Source: Thermomonas paludicola (GTDB lineage Bacteria; Pseudomonadota; Gammaproteobacteria; Xanthomonadales; Xanthomonadaceae). Taken from it: DNA of 64,000 bases. The stretch spans positions 1,054,001 to 1,118,000 of the forward strand of contig NZ_CP093311.1 in the NCBI RefSeq assembly GCF_024498955.1, written 5' to 3'. The notes beneath the pieces are model-generated. The model did no database searches and was not told the DNA's origin. It worked only from the letters and a program-made list of their open reading frames with translations. Position 1 is the stretch's first letter. The number at the start of each line of letters is the position of its first letter. Position numbers and translations under genes: made by a program. Shown in pieces: positions 17,961-24,896 of the stretch.

Positions 17961-18889
17961 GCCAGCACCTGCGCGGCCGGGCCCGCCACGGGCGTGAGAT
18001 GCAGGTCGCTGTCGATGCCGGCGGCGGCAAACGCTGCCTGCATTGCCGCACCCGCGCGCCGGGCGGTGGCGTCGTCCTCGTACCAGGCGAACACGCTGGG
18101 TCCCGCGCCGGAAATGCTGGCGCCCATGGCATCGGCATCCAGGGCGGCCTGCTTCACCGCAGCGAAGCCCGCGATCAGCGGCGCGCGGCGCGGTTCCACC
18201 AGCACGTCCGCAAGGCCCGCCCGCACCAGCGACGCGTCGCCGCGCTCGCAGCCCAGCAGCACCTGCGCCAGGTTCGCGCTTTGCGCCACGAACTCCTTCA
18301 GCGCATAGGCGCCGGCCAGCGCTTCGCGCGCACGGCGGGTTTCCAGCACCGCGTGCGGATGCACCACGGCGGCGTGCCATGCGGCCGGCACGTCGATCCT
18401 GGTCAAGCGGTCGGCGGTCGCCAGCACCAGCCCGCCCAACAGCATGGGGCCGACGTTGTCGCCGTGCCGGCCGCCGCTGGCGACGGCCTCACCGGCCAGC
18501 GCGTGCGGATACAGGGCGTGCGGCGACAGCGGCGCCTCCAGCAGCGCGTTCGCCGCCACCAGCGCGGCCACGCAGGACGCCGCGGAGCCGCCCAGCCCGG
18601 AGCCGAGCGGAATGCCCTTGTCCAGTTCCAGCTCGAAGCCGAACGGCAGGGCCAGCGCCTCGCGCAGCGCGATCAGCGCCATGCCGGCGGTATTGCGTCC
18701 GGCGTCCAGCGGCAGGTCGGTGACGGCGCCGCGGATCGCGGTGATCCGCACCGTCGGCGCGTCGATGCGGCGCACGGTGGCGGTGTCGCCGATGCCTTTG
18801 ATGCTGTGGCCGAGCACGTCGAAGCCGACGCCGACGTTGCCGACCGAGCCGGGCGAGAACGCGCGCGCCTCGAACTGCGCGCCGCTCAC
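17957..18889 (-). CDS. thrB: homoserine kinase
   Basis: This GHMP-family kinase phosphorylates homoserine with ATP. The 310-residue product shows the GHMP ATP-binding motif [12 protein letters not shown] and the C-terminal [10 protein letters not shown] motif. The start is GTG 18889, which overlaps the thrA stop in a GTGA tetranucleotide; its N-terminus ([20 protein letters not shown]) begins exactly at the fold's first strand. The very long open frame continuing upstream through thrA is an out-of-frame artefact of GC bias. Both ends overlap neighbours by 4 bp, indicating strict translational coupling. Confidence 0.96.
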
Positions 18890-21372
18890 AGCTTGGCTCC
18901 CAGCGCGGCGGCCAGCCGCAGCAGGTCGGAGAACACGCCGGCGGCGGTGACGTCCGGCCCGGCGCCGGGACCTTGCACGACCAGCGGGTTGTCGCAGTAG
19001 CGGCGGGTGGTGAATGACACGCAGTTGTCCGTCAGGCGCAGGTGGGCGAAGGCATGGTCGGCGGGAAGTTCGCGCAGCGCAACGGACGCCTTGCCATCTC
19101 GCTCCAACCGGGCGACATATCGCAGCACGCAGCCGTTCGCGCGTGCGGCGTCCAGCCGGGCCCGCATCGGCGCGTCCAGGGTTTCCAGCCCGGCCATGAA
19201 GGCATCGCGGTCGGCCCCGCGCAGGGCATCGGGAACCAGGCTTTCCACTTGCACGTCGGCCAGCGACAGCGGCATGCCGGACTCGCGGGCCAGGATCACC
19301 AGCTTGCGCGCCACGTCGGTGCCGGACAGGTCGTCGCGCGGGTCGGGTTCGGTGTAGCCCAGCGCGTGCGCTTCGCGCACCAGTTCGGAGAACGGTTTGC
19401 CGCCGTCGAACTTGTTGAACAGCCAGGCCAGCGTGCCGGAGAAGATGCCGTCGATGGCGAGCAGTTCGTCGCCGGTATCCAGCAGGTCGCGCAGGGTGGA
19501 AATCACCGGCAGGCCCGCGCCCACCGTGGCTTCGTAGCGGAAGCGAGCGCCGCTTTTCGCACGCGCCGCGCGGATCGCCTCGTAGCGTTCCAGCGGGCCG
19601 GCACCGGCCTGCTTGTTCGGCGTGATGACGTGGATGCCGGCGGCCAGCCAGTCCGGATAGCGCTGCGCCACGTTGTCGCTTGCGCTGCAGTCGATGACAA
19701 CCGCGTGTGGCAGGTGCGTGTCCAGCAGGTGCGCGGCCAGCGCGTCGAGGCTGTTTTCCGATGGCGCGGCCTGCATGCGCGCGCGCCAGTCGGCGTCGTC
19801 GCCGTGTTCGCACAACCACAGTGTGTTCCGGGTGGCCAGTGCGCGCAGGCGCAGGTCGATGTTGGCGTCGCGGCGCAGGCGCGGCAGCGCGGCCTGCAGC
19901 TGGTCGAGCAGGGCGCCGCCGACCTTGCCGGGGCCGATCACCGCCAGGGCAATGGTCTGCGGCGACAGCCAGAACGCGGCGTGCACGGCGCGCAACGCAC
20001 GCGCGGCGTCGGCGGCGTCGATCGCCACCGAGATGTTGCGCTCGGATGCGCCCTGCGCGATCGCGCGGATGTTGACCCGGGCGCGCGCCAGCGCGTCGAA
20101 CATCCGCGCGGCCACGCCCGGCGTGCCGGCCATGCCGTCGCCGACTGCGGCCAGCACGCTGACGCCGGCCAGCAGGGTCACGCCCTGTACCTGCGCGCCG
20201 GCCAGTTCGCGGGCGAAGGCCTCGCGCAGGGCGTCGCGCGCGGCGGCGGCTTCGCGCTGGTGGACCACGCAGCAGATCGAGTGTTCGGACGAACCCTGCG
20301 AGATCATCACCACCGAGATGTGCGCGGCATGCAGCGCGGCGAACACGCGCTCGGCGGTGCCAGGCACGCCGATCAGCCCCGCGCCCTCCAGGCACACCAG
20401 CGCCAGGTCGCTGCCCAGCGTCAGCCCCTTCACCGGGCCGGCGGCGCTGCGGTCGCCATCGGCGTCGATGCGGGTGCCGGGGAACTCGGGGCGGAAGGTG
20501 TTGCGCATCAGGATCGGCAGGCCGCGCGCGATGGCCGGGGTCATCGTTTGCGGGTGGATCACCTTGGCGCCGAAATAGGCCAGCTCGCAGGCTTCGCGGT
20601 AGCTCATCGCGGCCAGCGGCACCGCTTCCGGCACGATCCGCGGATCCGCCGACAGCACGCCATCGACATCGCTCCAGATGTGCAGTTCGTCGGCCTCGAA
20701 CAGGCTGGCGAAGATCGCCGCGGAATAGTCGCTGCCGTTGCGGCCCAGCGTGGTGGGCAGGCCGCGTTCGTCGCGGGCGACGAAGCCGGTGATGTTGACG
20801 CGCGACTGCGGATGGCGCGCGCGCCAGTCGGCCAGCAGTGCCGCGCTGGCCTGCCAGTCGACCACCGCGCCGAGATCGGTGTGGCGCACCACCAACACCT
20901 CGCGCGCGTCCAGCAGGGCGTAGTCGCCGCCGCGTTCGGCCAGGTGCGCGTGCAGCAGCGCGGTCGAGAGCACTTCGCCCATGCCGTGGATGCGCTCCAG
21001 CGCGGTGCGGCCCGGCTGGCGCAGCAGCGAAGTCGCTTGCAGCAGCTCGGCCAGTTCGTCGCAGAGCGCGTCGATCCGCGCCAGCATCGCATCCGGATGC
21101 GCCAGCAATGCACGCGCGGTGTCGCAGTGGCGCAGGCGCAGGGCATCGAGCGCGTCCTGCCATTCGGCGCCGGCAGTGGCCGCATCGCCCAGTGCGACCA
21201 GCGCATTGGTGGTGCCGTGCATCGCGGAGGTGATCGCGATCTGTCGCGAGGCGGTATCCGTCAGCAGCAGGTCGGCGACATGGCGGATGCGCCCGGCATC
21301 GGCCAGCGAACTGCCGCCGAACTTGTGTGCGCGGAAAACGGGTTGGGGTGCTGCGGGCTGCGAGGGAACCAT
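18886..21372 (-). CDS. thrA: bifunctional aspartokinase / homoserine dehydrogenase I
   Basis: The 828-residue fusion catalyses the first and third steps from aspartate towards threonine. The N-terminal aspartokinase begins [10 protein letters not shown] at residue 17 and has the ACT regulatory pair in the middle ([33 protein letters not shown]). The C-terminal homoserine dehydrogenase starts with a nucleotide-binding [13 protein letters not shown] and contains [14 protein letters not shown] and the [14 protein letters not shown] substrate segment. ATG 21372 is preferred because GGAGG lies about 5 nt upstream; ATGs 15 codons further up lack this. The threonine-rich leader thrL lies just upstream, so attenuation is expected, and ACT domains imply feedback inhibition by threonine. 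Confidence 0.96.
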
Positions 21373-21420
21373 GAAGCCTCCGAAGGGGCTCCACATCGCG
21401 TCAGGAAAGGGCTGCAACCG

Positions 21421-21444
21421 CCCCGCCTCTGTCGAGGTGCGGGG
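21421..21444 (-). terminator. hairpin between thrL and thrA, candidate attenuator
   Basis: Read on the minus strand, CCCCG...CGGGG with an inner CCTC/GAGG extension forms a 9-bp stem with a 2-nt bulge and a 4-nt loop. It begins 15 nt after the thrL stop. The following bases contain only a weak run of T (CCCTTTCC), so termination strength is uncertain. Its position between leader peptide and structural gene is that of a classical thr attenuator. Confidence 0.5.
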
Positions 21445-21459
21445 CCGTGGTTGGATGAT

Positions 21460-21543
21460 TTATCCGCGCATGACCGACCGCACCGGGCGAGTGGTACCGG
21501 TGCCGGTGGTAATGGTCGTGGTGGTGGTCATGCGGCGGGACAT
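21460..21543 (-). CDS. thrL: threonine operon leader peptide
   Basis: A 27-codon frame begins MSRRMTTTTTITTGTGTT and ends at TAA 21460, with 10 threonines and one isoleucine within 14 consecutive codons. It is 88 bp upstream of thrA. In enterobacteria, ribosome stalling at such codons when threonyl- or isoleucyl-tRNA is scarce prevents the attenuator from forming; that mechanism is inferred here. A -35 TTGACA (21579-21574) and a weak -10 CAGAGT place transcription start at or next to the ATG, so the leader may be translated without a Shine-Dalgarno. The second Met codon (fifth position) is an alternative start. Confidence 0.8.
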   Translation of the reverse strand: MSRRMTTTTTITTGTGTTRPVRSVMRG

Positions 21544-21600
21544 GGGCCGACTCTGCTGCACTGCAGCGAACCTTGTCAAGTGGTGGTTACGGGTGGAACC
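21471..21600 (-). repeat. direct repeat copy A: symporter 3' end, thr promoter and thrL
   Basis: This segment aligns with 22786-22900 in the same orientation at roughly 90% identity by eye, apart from a 15-nt in-frame addition in copy A within the thrL codons. It includes the TTGACA promoter element, the start of the leader peptide and, at its right edge, a degenerate copy of the last codons of the neighbouring symporter gene (CCACCCGTAACCACC, then TGA). Copy A is the one directly upstream of thrA. Confidence 0.9.
21574..21579 (-). promoter_or_regulatory. -35 element of the thr operon promoter
   Basis: On the minus strand TTGACA is followed 18 bp later by CAGAGT (21555-21550). The same TTGACA and CAGAGT are conserved in repeat copy B (22879-22874). 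The -10 match is poor, but conservation in both copies supports function. The transcription start would fall at about 21543, on the thrL ATG. Confidence 0.5.
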
Positions 21601-21668
21601 GTGGCATCACTGTTGCTGGCATGCGCAGAAAGGTCACTGTCAGTGTCACCCGCAACAGGTCGGGCTAG

Positions 21669-22646
21669 CTAGCGGTGCCGGTGCACCAGGAACGACCGCC
21701 CTTCGACGGCGTAGTCGTGCCAGCGCTCGACCTCGAGCTCGGGATGCGCGGCCAACAGCTCGCGCAGCGCGCGGCGCTCGCCGGTTGCGTTCGACGCGTG
21801 GTTGGCATGGAACTCGTCGAACAGCAGAACCGAGCCCTGCTGCAGCACCGGCGCGACGAATTCAAGCGCCACCTTGGCCGCCTCGTAGACGTCGCAGTCG
21901 ATGTGCACCACGGCCGCGGCGTCAATGCCGAGACGCTCGCGCAGGCCCGGCTCGGCCAGGCTCTCGCGGAAGTCGCCCGGCACCGACGCGCAGCGTGCCG
22001 GATCGAGCCCGGCGACGCGCCAGTTGTGCTCGAAGGTCTCGCGGTTCGAGCAGTAGGTACCGTCGGCGTAGACCTCGTCGTTGCGCGCGCCGAGGATGCC
22101 GGTGAAGCTGTCGAAGCCGAAAAAGCGCATCGACGGACAGCGCTGCGCCATCGAGTGCCAGGCGAGCGTGAACGTGCGGCCGTCGAAGGTGCCGAACTCG
22201 AGGTAGTGGCCGCGCCGCAGGTTGGCGGCAACCTTGCCAGCCTCGTTGAACATCACTTCGTAGTGGATCGGGTTGACGCGCACTTGCGCTGGCCCGATGA
22301 ACAGCGTGCGCGCGTACAGCGTATTGACGATGAAGCCGCGCGCCTTCAGGAAGCCGGTTGCCGCGTGCAGCGCCTTCAGCACGAGCTGGTCGGCGTCGGC
22401 GAGCAGGATCAGCGTATTGCCGCCATCGGCGCCATCGGGCAGCGCCGCCTCGATCAGCGCCGACTGCGCCGCGACGGGCGCAGGCAGCGTCACGGCGAAG
22501 CCCTCGTAGCCGTCCATCAGCGGCTGGCAATCGGGAATCGCCCGGGCCAGCCCGTCGGCGGTGCCGAGCAGCAGGATGTTGCGCAGTGCCGGCCCGAAGG
22601 CATCGATGTTGCGTACCAGCAGTGATGAACCTTCGGCGAACGGCAT
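21669..22646 (-). CDS. TylF/MycF-type SAM-dependent methyltransferase
   Basis: The 325-residue product has the TylF macrocin-O-methyltransferase fold in its C-terminal two-thirds. Key elements are the SAM motif YLEFGTFDGRTF (about residue 145), FFGFDSFTGI, the acidic VVHIDCDVYEAA and VLLFDEF. The first 120 residues are a separate, less recognisable domain (NTLILLADADQLVLKALHAA). Relatives O-methylate sugars of polysaccharides or secondary metabolites, so a cell-surface sugar role is plausible but unproven. ATG 22646 has GAAGGA upstream. The gene sits alone between two copies of the thr promoter/leader, directly behind the remnant of another gene, which points to acquisition from outside. Confidence 0.82.
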   Translation of the reverse strand: MPFAEGSSLLVRNIDAFGPALRNILLLGTADGLARAIPDCQPLMDGYEGFAVTLPAPVAAQSALIEAALPDGADGGNTLILLADADQLVLKALHAATGFLKARGFIVNTLYARTLFIGPAQVRVNPIHYEVMFNEAGKVAANLRRGHYLEFGTFDGRTFTLAWHSMAQRCPSMRFFGFDSFTGILGARNDEVYADGTYCSNRETFEHNWRVAGLDPARCASVPGDFRESLAEPGLRERLGIDAAAVVHIDCDVYEAAKVALEFVAPVLQQGSVLLFDEFHANHASNATGERRALRELLAAHPELEVERWHDYAVEGRSFLVHRHR

Positions 22647-22658
22647 CGGCGCGATCCT

Positions 22659-22785
22659 TCAGAAGAACCCGTATTTCGAAGTTGGCTCGTCGACGCCGAC
22701 GCCCTGCGCGTTGATCGGCCGGTTCATCGAATCGAAGGCAGCGCGCTTGCGCACGTCCTGGCAGGTGTAGTCGCTCGCGAACAGT
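22659..22785 (-). pseudogene. 3' remnant of an unidentified gene
   Basis: A 41-codon open stretch ends at TGA 22659, 12 bp before the methyltransferase ATG. It begins LFASDYTCQDVRKRAAF and ends TSKYGFF. It has no start or ribosome site of its own, and its left part runs straight out of repeat copy B, exactly where similarity to the thr leader stops. It therefore looks like the C-terminal coding end of a gene whose 5' part was lost at a recombination junction. I do not recognise the family. Confidence 0.45.
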
Positions 22786-22900
22786 TGACCGACCGCGCCG
22801 GGCAGGTGGCAATGGTCGTGGTGATGGTCATGTGACGGGACATGGGGCGACTCTGCTGCACTGCGGCGAAGCTTGTCAAGCGGTGGTTGCGGGTGGAGCG
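22786..22900 (-). repeat. direct repeat copy B: symporter 3' end, thr promoter and altered leader
   Basis: This is the partner of 21471-21600. Here the TTGACA contains the genuine stop codon of the symporter (TGA, 22878-22876). The leader frame begins MSRHMTITTTIATCPARS and continues out of the repeat to a stop at 22724 without the attenuator hairpin. Copy B would drive transcription into the methyltransferase rather than thrA. Confidence 0.9.
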
Positions 22901-24132
22901 GATGGCGCCTGCTCGTCGTTCCGTGACGCCACGATGGCCGTCGCCGTCATGTCGGCGGTCACGTTGCCCACGGTGGCCAGCACGTCGGGGATCGCGTCCA
23001 CCGCCATCAGCACCGGCAGCGCGGCAATCGGCAGGCCCATCGCGGAGGTGATGGGCAGGTTGGTGGCGAGGAAGATCGCCTGGCCTGGCAGGCCCACCGA
23101 GCCCATGCTGACCAGCACCGACAGCGCTACGCCCGTCGCCAGTTGCGCAAAGCCGAGATCCACGCCCAGCGCCCAGGCGATGAAGCAGGCGGTGGCGATG
23201 TACTGGATCGGCGAGGTGATGCGGAACAGCGACACCGCCATCGGCAGCACCAGGCCAGCGATGCGATTGGGGTAGCCCAATTTGTTTTCGGCGCTGTCCA
23301 GCATGGCTGGCAGGGTGGCCAGCGAGGATTGGGTGCTGGCCGCCACTACCTGCACGGGAGCCAGCCCGGACATGAAATGCCCGAACTTCTGGCGACCCAC
23401 GATGACAGCCACGACCACCAGCAGCACGATGGCCAGCACGTACAGTGAACATTCCAGCAGGATGTAAATGCCCAGCGCCTGCAACATGCCCAGCCCGGAG
23501 CGCGCGGTCAGCGCCAGCACCAGCGCGAAAATGCCGACCGGCGCGGCCCACAGCACCCAGTGCACGATCACGATCATCGCGTCACTGACCGCCTTCAGCA
23601 GGCCCACCACCTGCGCGCGCGGGGCGGCGTCGATGCGGGTCAGGGCGAAGCCGAAAAACAGTGCGAAGGTGACCAATGGCAGCATCGCGCTGGCTGCGGC
23701 TGCAGCGAGGGCATTGCTGGGGATGATGGCGGTCAGCGCATCGGCCCAGCCGCCGCTGGCGATCGGCAACGCCGTGGCATGGCCGCGCAGTGCGACCGCC
23801 ACGGCCGGGTCTGGCTGCAGCATCGACAGTGCCAGCGGCGCCAGCAGCGCCGCCATGCTCGCCGCCGCGGTGAGCAAAATCACGAAACTGAGAATCGCCT
23901 GCCGCGCCACGCGCCCGGAGTGGGCGGCATCGCTGGCCTGGTTGATGCCCACCACCACCAGCGCGAACACCAGCGGCACCACGGTCATTTGCAGGGCGTT
24001 GAGCCAGAGCTTGCCGAACGGCTCGACGGTGGCGGCAATGCGCAGGCCAAGCTCCGGCGCCTGCCACGCCAACAAAATGCCGATGGCGATGCCGGCGATC
24101 AAGCCGGACAGGACGCGCGCGGTCTGGCTCAC
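22876..24132 (-). CDS. dicarboxylate/amino acid:cation symporter (DAACS family)
   Basis: The 418-residue protein has eight to ten hydrophobic segments. The glutamate-transporter-family signature region includes STQSSLATLPAMLDSAE (the serine-rich reentrant loop), LVLPMAVSLFRITSPIQYI and VLMAVDAIPDVLATVGNV. It takes up C4-dicarboxylates or acidic amino acids with H+ or Na+. GTG 24132 overlaps the L,D-transpeptidase stop in GTGA; an in-frame ATG at 24156 would add 8 residues. The stop codon is embedded in the -35 box of repeat copy B, and a degenerate copy of its last codons reappears in repeat copy A. Confidence 0.9.
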   Translation of the reverse strand: MSQTARVLSGLIAGIAIGILLAWQAPELGLRIAATVEPFGKLWLNALQMTVVPLVFALVVVGINQASDAAHSGRVARQAILSFVILLTAAASMAALLAPLALSMLQPDPAVAVALRGHATALPIASGGWADALTAIIPSNALAAAAASAMLPLVTFALFFGFALTRIDAAPRAQVVGLLKAVSDAMIVIVHWVLWAAPVGIFALVLALTARSGLGMLQALGIYILLECSLYVLAIVLLVVVAVIVGRQKFGHFMSGLAPVQVVAASTQSSLATLPAMLDSAENKLGYPNRIAGLVLPMAVSLFRITSPIQYIATACFIAWALGVDLGFAQLATGVALSVLVSMGSVGLPGQAIFLATNLPITSAMGLPIAALPVLMAVDAIPDVLATVGNVTADMTATAIVASRNDEQAPSAPPATTA

Positions 24133-24896
24133 AGGCTTGCCTCCGGCAGCTTCCATTGATGTCTCAGCGCGACGTACTGCGCCTTCGGCAACAACACGAA
24201 CACGGGATTGCGGCGTGCATCCAGCCAGGCCAGCAGCGCGTCCATGCTGGCCGGCGCCATTGCCGTGCAGCCGGCGGTGGTGGTCTGCGGGTCTTTCCAG
24301 AGATGGGCGAAGATGCAGCTGCCGCCCTGGCGCGCGCCGCCGCCTGCGTTGTGCTCGATGACGAAGCCTTCGCGATAGCGCTGGTCGCCGTCGGCGTGGA
24401 GGTCGCGGCGCATCGGCTCGCTGGACTTGTCGAGGAACGGCGCCTTGACCACGCTGCGGTCGATGATGCGGTTGTAATAGGCCGACTCGGGCACGTCGAT
24501 GCACCAGTCGTTGGCGCCCATCGCCTTGTAGCCAAGCCCGGTCTGTGCGCTGCTGGCGTAGCCAAACGCGGTGCCGATGGCGAATACACCGGCCGGTGCG
24601 CGGCCGTCGCCCTCCTGCTTGATGGGGCCGTCGCCGCGTGTGGCGTTCAGGCCGATGCCCCACGCGCTGCCGCTGCGGCCCAGCAGCACTGGCACCGCGT
24701 CACCGACCTGCTGCCAGCCAGCGTTGCTGCGTTCGAAGCGCCGGAGTTCGCCACCGGTTGCATTCCAGTCGTCGCTGGTGACCAACACCAGCTGCTGCGC
24801 GTTGGCCCAGTGCGTGGCGTCGGAGGCGGTGCGCTGGTGCGCGCAGGCGGCAAGCAGCAGTGACAGCAGGAAAGCAGAGAGCCAGCGGATCGGCAT
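24129..24896 (-). CDS. L,D-transpeptidase (YkuD-like) lipoprotein
   Basis: This is a 255-residue secreted lipoprotein with signal sequence MPIRWLSAFLLSLLLAAC, lipobox LLAAC and lipidation at C18. The C-terminal half has the YkuD catalytic arrangement: H198 (CIFAHLWKDP) and C210 (TTTAGCTAM). Members crosslink peptidoglycan through 3-3 bonds or attach proteins to it. The active-site motif is a divergent form of the usual S/T-H-G-C (here T-A-G-C). Its stop overlaps the symporter GTG by 4 bp, although the two functions have no obvious link. Confidence 0.85.
   Translation of the reverse strand: MPIRWLSAFLLSLLLAACAHQRTASDATHWANAQQLVLVTSDDWNATGGELRRFERSNAGWQQVGDAVPVLLGRSGSAWGIGLNATRGDGPIKQEGDGRAPAGVFAIGTAFGYASSAQTGLGYKAMGANDWCIDVPESAYYNRIIDRSVVKAPFLDKSSEPMRRDLHADGDQRYREGFVIEHNAGGGARQGGSCIFAHLWKDPQTTTAGCTAMAPASMDALLAWLDARRNPVFVLLPKAQYVALRHQWKLPEASL

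Follow-up and report, generated by a model that had tools for sequence, protein, structure and literature searches.

A partial duplication of the threonine-operon control region flanks a putative methyltransferase gene in Thermomonas paludicola and carries a mosaic attenuator

Introduction

How did a methyltransferase gene come to lie between two copies of a threonine-operon control region, and where did the two copies come from? The question is raised by a locus of Thermomonas paludicola, whose genome is a single contig of 2.7 Mb. The window analysed here is a stretch of 64,000 nucleotides (NZ_CP093311.1, positions 1,054,001 to 1,118,000), and coordinates refer to it unless stated otherwise. 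An earlier note, made from the letters alone, had proposed that foreign DNA integrated at the junction of a gltP-like symporter gene and thrL, duplicating the control region. Our comparison with related genomes leads to a similar picture built on different evidence: the insertion is real and mosaic, and it is probably not recent. The literature on illegitimate recombination, thr attenuation, flagellin glycosylation and Thermomonas, searched by titles and the beginnings of abstracts, gave no description of the locus.

Organisation of the locus

All features lie on the minus strand, in the order SDF symporter, copy B, stub, methyltransferase, copy A, hairpin and thrA, and copy B is thus the upstream copy. 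The features are as follows.

22876..24159, minus strand: SDF-family (gltP-like) symporter, left flank (PF00375, E 7.6e-76)
22786..22906, minus strand: copy B, a thr promoter with the 5' portion of thrL (107/120 against copy A, gaps excluded)
22724..22843, minus strand: 39-codon leader ORF in copy B, reading into foreign DNA (translation)
22659..22785, minus strand: stub, 3' end left from a cytidylyltransferase/RraA-like fusion gene that has decayed (homology to the intact gene)
21669..22646, minus strand: methyltransferase, 325 aa, TylF/Methyltransf_24-like (PF13578 above cut-off)
21606..21668, minus strand: spacer of 63 nt between methyltransferase and copy A (chance-level matches elsewhere)
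21471..21605, minus strand: copy A, thr promoter and 5' part of the leader (alignments)
21460..21543, minus strand: full thrL leader peptide encoded by copy A (translation; leader aligned in 21 genus genomes)
21373..21488, minus strand: G003-like foreign patch, from the end of leader A through the attenuator to the thrA start (diagnostic sites, AU test)
21415..21453, minus strand: GC-rich hairpin of copy A, presumed attenuator (folding, Rfam)
18886..21372, minus strand: thrA, bifunctional aspartokinase/homoserine dehydrogenase, right flank (NF006959, 985 bits, cut-off 726)

The symporter scored 140 bits against the NCBIfam GltP model, far under the cut-off of 638. In copy B its gene ends in a stop codon that shares bases with the thr -35 hexamer TTGACA. 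For the spacer, comparison of the loci gave no convincing match outside this one.

The two leader copies

The two direct repeats of about 90% identity that the earlier note had described are present where it placed them. The exact alignment it called for runs across both repeats as a single gapped alignment (21605-21471 against 22906-22786) of 136 columns, 107 identical and 16 with gaps, the latter made up of one gap of 15 nt and one of 1 nt; ungapped identity is 89%. With copy A as a blastn query against the locus, copy B was found at E 2e-32, and the local alignment score of the two copies is 164, against a maximum of 44 across 293 random window segments, so that the similarity goes beyond chance promoter motifs. 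Each repeat also has the TTGACA hexamer and leader start attributed to it: on the minus strand TTGACA starts at 22879 in copy B and at 21579 in copy A, and a leader ORF was translated from each.

Copy A encodes a complete, Thr-rich leader peptide, MSRRMTTTTTITTGTGTTRPVRSVMRG, while the peptide of copy B begins MSRHMTITTTIATCPARSVNC and then continues into foreign sequence. Copy B is cut off at GGTCA, with five leader codons deleted and the attenuator gone; copy A has both. Leader B differs from leader A by five amino-acid changes and the five-codon deletion. A consensus promoter scan called no promoter at either copy, and the likely -10 element of the copies was read by eye from the sequence. 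The leader ATG (22843-22841 in copy B, 21543-21541 in copy A) lies about 6 nt past this likely -10, and because of this short distance the leader mRNA may be leaderless.

The promoter part of copy B is identical to that of the genome G016 at 55 of 58 positions, and TTGACAAG is common to copies A, B and G016 and absent from the other aligned relatives (21 aligned). Path distances in the leader tree are 0.16 between A and B, 0.14 between A and G016 and 0.18 between B and G016. In the tree of the leader block, copy A, G005, copy B and G020 group together (91/92, drawn open), and the partner of copy B is G020 (95/81) rather than copy A. The earlier argument that divergence between the copies shows one of them to have come with the insert did not survive this comparison: the three distances are alike and copy B was freed from leader constraint, so a divergence of about 10% is insufficient for a foreign origin, and an old native duplication would give similar values. 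We therefore set divergence aside as proof and used the mosaic of diagnostic sites described below.

Genes between the repeats

The larger of the two inserted features had been called a TylF-type methyltransferase. The methyltransferase assignment of the ORF 22646-21669 stood, with Methyltransf_24 (PF13578) at 31.1 over a cut-off of 26.3, while TylF (PF05711) fell narrowly under its cut-off (22.8 against 23.0), although several homologues carry TylF. Searching by sequence turned up a single solved relative, the TDP-rhamnose 3'-O-methyltransferase CalS11 (profile E 3.5e-7). The methyltransferase domain aligns with CalS11 and its kin across residues 145-282; unlike them, the inserted protein has about 140 extra N-terminal residues. 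It is probably a sugar O-methyltransferase, and we infer a role in glycan methylation. Among its protein homologues, sought by scoring the 7995 candidates that share most words, 8 of 27 have 70-92% identity, and two named Thermomonas sp. reach 91-92%.

The composition of the gene (GC 68.5, GC3 89.6) is the same as that of its neighbours and so offers no compositional evidence of foreign origin; atypical composition was rejected as a sign of it. Carriage by phage or plasmid was rejected as well, since the 5 plasmid and 67 phage records found were all below 60% identity and none covered 80% of the query. Viral contigs gave three distant loci only, and in the genome contigs the best 80 of at least 298 related stretches top out at 39% identity, in a search that may omit near relatives of the window. 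Elsewhere in the same genome (L147:7870-8607), near hemE- and aroB-like genes as judged from translations, there is a gene for another, distantly related methyltransferase of TylF type, which has 37% identity to the inserted protein across residues 142-321.

The other feature, described earlier as the 3' end of another gene, is indeed the end of a gene, namely a cytidylyltransferase/RraA-like fusion. The stub is 58% identical over 31 aa to an intact homologue in its own genome, has a match of 61% over 31 aa in G579, and is internally about 48 residues shorter than the intact homologue; Pfam did not recognise the 43-aa stub. Matches to it occur in 3 of 369 sampled class genomes, the window's genome counted. 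On our reading of the sequence, the stub supplies the GAAGGA ahead of the methyltransferase.

The intact homologue, at about 1.364 Mb, combines a cytidylyltransferase domain (PF02348) with an RraA-like one (PF03737). It has flagellin-domain genes on both sides, together with one capsule-synthesis-domain gene and one hydrolase-domain gene, surroundings that look like a flagellin glycosylation island. This probable island extends over L161:1002-8551 (G000:C1, about 1.358-1.3656 Mb), and its cytidylyltransferase/RraA fusion has a lower GC of 60%. In the other genomes of the genus the fusion gave weak N-terminal matches only (8/24). With the kin of the stub beside flagellin genes and CalS11 as the relative of the methyltransferase, the insert resembles a fragment from a cluster for glycan modification.

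Distribution among relatives

The genus sample comprised 24 other genomes, five of them less than 90% complete. A thr leader was matched in 21 of the 24, one apiece; G008, G009 and G015 gave no such match. A stretch of 7 kb was read at each of the 21 loci with a match (one contig ends after 3.4 kb). The empty site proposed earlier as a check, a single leader with an adjoining symporter, was found at 10 of the 21 loci; at four, other DNA of 1.3-4.1 kb separates the symporter from the leader, and in the remaining seven there is no symporter in the stretch read. No second leader was seen at any of the 21 loci. A short block resembling the last codons of the symporter precedes the thr promoter in G016, G012, G013, G018 and G020, as seen by eye in the alignment; in these genomes the symporter itself is not adjacent (L126, L131, L133, L136, L139).

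The methyltransferase is represented in the 24 other genus genomes only by a 32% partial match in G011, and its best other match in 395 sampled genomes of the family, genus included, is 39% and also partial. An extra piece of DNA at the gltP-like/thrL junction is thereby supported.

Mosaic origin of copy A

If distance alone does not reveal the origin of the copies, then we can ask: Which relatives does each part of the control region resemble? The genomes closest to the window's thrA are G016, G024, G023, G002 and G018, here called clade 1. Over 20972-19973 thrA has 89-92% nucleotide identity to clade 1. In the thrA block 20935-20036 clade 1 was recovered (73/89) and kinship with G003 rejected (p 1.2e-6); in the block 21335-20936 clade 1 was neither recovered nor rejected (p 0.215), and kinship with G003 was again rejected (p 0.0012). 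In radA, thrC and hemE the clade-1 genomes stand at or near the top, with G016 behind G007 in hemE, and in the radA comparison G023 had no full match and G018 matched in two pieces. Of 16 genomes searched, G003 came last in identity for thrC (73%) and hemE (78%); its radA has 82%, within the 80-86% spanned by the long radA matches. The symporter does not exceed 83%; its nearest genomes by tree path are G016, G002, G023 and G024, in a weak placement.

The region just after the leader behaves differently. Clade-1 members are 90-98% identical to one another there, and the window is only 49-55% identical to them in the same alignment. In pairwise comparison G003 was best at 70/84, a similarity that the multiple alignment understates at 55%; next by score came G010 (58/75), and G016 gave 61/87. 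In the tree of the attenuator block the window groups with G003 (90/87, not starred); clade 1 was rejected for this block by the AU test (p 0.0018).

Diagnostic sites trace the change along the sequence. In 21608-21489 (leading gap columns omitted) 24 sites are of the clade-1 type, one of the G003 type and one other. G003 has its promoter and the 5' part of its leader on a long branch (0.54), and so this count of 24:1 says mostly that the sequence is not that of G003 and less that it is that of clade 1. The proportion is reversed in 21488-21373, with 5 clade-1 sites, 28 G003 sites and 7 like neither. It returns at the thrA start (21372-21330: 40 clade-1, no G003, 4 other, 27 of the columns being a single indel) and continues in 21329-21200 (21, 1 and 2) and 21199-21001 (51, 11 and 8, the last seven G003 sites lying at the alignment end). 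The left edge of the foreign patch falls somewhere in 21499-21467, a range that includes the end of the duplicated block at 21471, and the right edge is at the conserved ribosome-binding site and start of thrA, that is, in allelic homologous sequence.

We conclude from these sequence comparisons that copy A is wholly or partly of another lineage's origin, because its leader end and attenuator are G003-like while thrA groups with close relatives. The suggestion that one copy had arrived from elsewhere gains support in this way, from the 3' end of leader A and the attenuator, for which clade 1 is rejected.

Control by threonine

A Thr/Ile-rich leader ORF ahead of thrA is kept in the relatives, as seen in the alignment of 21 genus genomes. 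Copy A resembles the Rfam threonine leader (RF00506) in that a hairpin comes after a Thr-rich leader ahead of thrA, and it was matched by this model at 21413-21539, with 30.4 bits (E 0.0029) under the gathering score of 55. Copy B was not among the Thr_leader matches at the locus. The fold of 21405-21542 has a z of -3.8. Unlike RF00506 members, copy A scores below gathering and its GC hairpin has no U run, and copy B has no attenuator; no terminator-like site was called. A covarying attenuator helix was also considered and rejected, as RNAalifold gave a weak consensus for the 22 sequences and the single folds differ.

The earlier reading that the methyltransferase lies behind a thr promoter lacking the attenuator agrees with the sequence, in which no attenuator lies between the promoter of copy B and the methyltransferase. 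Since copy B keeps the promoter-like stretch without the attenuator, the methyltransferase is probably transcribed from it free of threonine control. The thrABC genes are probably now under copy A, with its full leader and hairpin.

Origin of the insertion

We give about an even chance to a single import of 22785-21373 from a Thermomonas-like lineage, with homology at one end and an illegitimate join at the other. DNA from about 22785 to 21373 would have entered the thr control region of the recipient as one piece, consisting of the decayed end of a glycan-island gene, the whole methyltransferase gene and the donor's thr promoter, leader and attenuator. Homologous recombination would have taken place at the leader and start of thrA, and the other end would have been joined without allelic homology at GGTCA inside the recipient leader, with loss of the recipient's own attenuator. 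The outcome would be a partial direct repeat in which copy B has the native promoter, a broken leader and no attenuator, and copy A is complete, carries a foreign attenuator and controls thrABC. One such import would account at once for the repeat and the stub as well as for the methyltransferase and the attenuator. On the copy B side the junction lies after GGTCA of the leader. Transformation is at least a possible route, as a ComEC-family gene is present in the genome and Ku was not found in it.

Several findings count against the single import, and its rival is a history of two events. In the first, the methyltransferase piece would have come in by integration of a small circle or by template switching, with duplication of the native promoter and leader; in the second, short homologous recombination would have replaced the attenuator of the downstream copy by that of a G003-like species. 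Under native duplication the grouping of A, G005, B and G020 in the leader tree is possible, and the sharing of TTGACAAG by A, B and G016 alone points the same way. In its 5' half copy A is like G016 and not like G003, so that a single donor needs an ordinary promoter together with a G003-like attenuator; the comparison of this half with G016 and G003 is weak either way, given the long branch of G003. At about 116 bp the foreign patch is short, with clade-1-type sequence on either side, and G003-type states return within thrA at 11 of the 70 diagnostic sites in 21199-21001. Among the genomes searched none was seen to be a donor in which the methyltransferase adjoins thrL, and as thrA has about 92% identity to clade 1 and the symporter no more than 83%, the word native is less sure for one flank. 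Duplications of 109-950 bp, found in E. coli and ascribed there to a single crossover of circular DNA (PMC3240628, in the part of that study drawn on here), make the two-event history a serious rival. It requires that two independent boundaries coincide at about 21499-21467, where a single import has the left edge of the patch and the end of the duplicated block in common, and we regard it as possible, with some doubt.

The methyltransferase relatives at 91-92% identity named Thermomonas sp., together with the amino-acid changes and deletion in leader B, would also fit an old trait, inserted in an ancestor and inherited vertically in a small sub-clade; the 10% by which the copies diverge would then come from age and from relaxed selection on copy B. 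Age alone leaves the foreign attenuator and the stub unexplained, and we think this history unlikely as a full account; it concerns timing rather than mechanism and is compatible with a single import. That a mobile element integrates repeatedly at the thr leader seems highly improbable to us. The DNA 5' of thrL does vary in the genus, with 1.3-4.1 kb of extra sequence or no symporter at 11 of the 21 loci, but there is no second leader at any of these loci, the scan of neighbouring proteins (thrB and thrC lay outside it) gave no integrase or transposase domain, and to judge from their translations the remaining upstream genes are of an ordinary core kind. Two inverted-repeat pairs occur in the region, neither bounding the insert.

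Significance and comparison with known systems

The locus offers a well-resolved natural junction. Under the single import, a foreign gene entered before a biosynthetic operon and control of that operon was kept through the second control region that came with it. It suggests exchange of an attenuator between species within about 116 bp, and if the promoter of copy B is active it would be a clean natural promoter takeover. A broader proposal, to which we give little credence, makes the thr control region a promoter donor, where an imported leader would let a foreign gene seize the resident promoter without its attenuator. If this were true, the operon would keep an imported switch, and conserved regulatory leaders could be favoured sites of cargo capture between related species.

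The locus adds one more case to a known process, gene transfer with rearrangement. Homology-facilitated illegitimate recombination in E. coli, as presented in the part of PMC3240628 used here, would likewise place a foreign insert beside homologous DNA. Illegitimate joining was predicted there to yield deletion; a duplication PCR product was obtained in 56/60 clones, 14 of which were sequenced, and their range of 109-950 bp includes the size of our repeat. Those duplications are ascribed in the study to the circular-DNA crossover and not to illegitimate joining proper, and our case differs further in being known from sequence only and in having a foreign regulatory patch, indicated by the mosaic attenuator. 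Tandem duplication by illegitimate recombination has also been reported to activate horizontally transferred genes (PMC11111574, from the portion cited), and there too a duplication accompanies a foreign gene. In Thermomonas paludicola, unlike in that portion of the report, the duplicated unit is the promoter and leader of an amino-acid operon, the host operon keeps a complete copy, and activation is putative.
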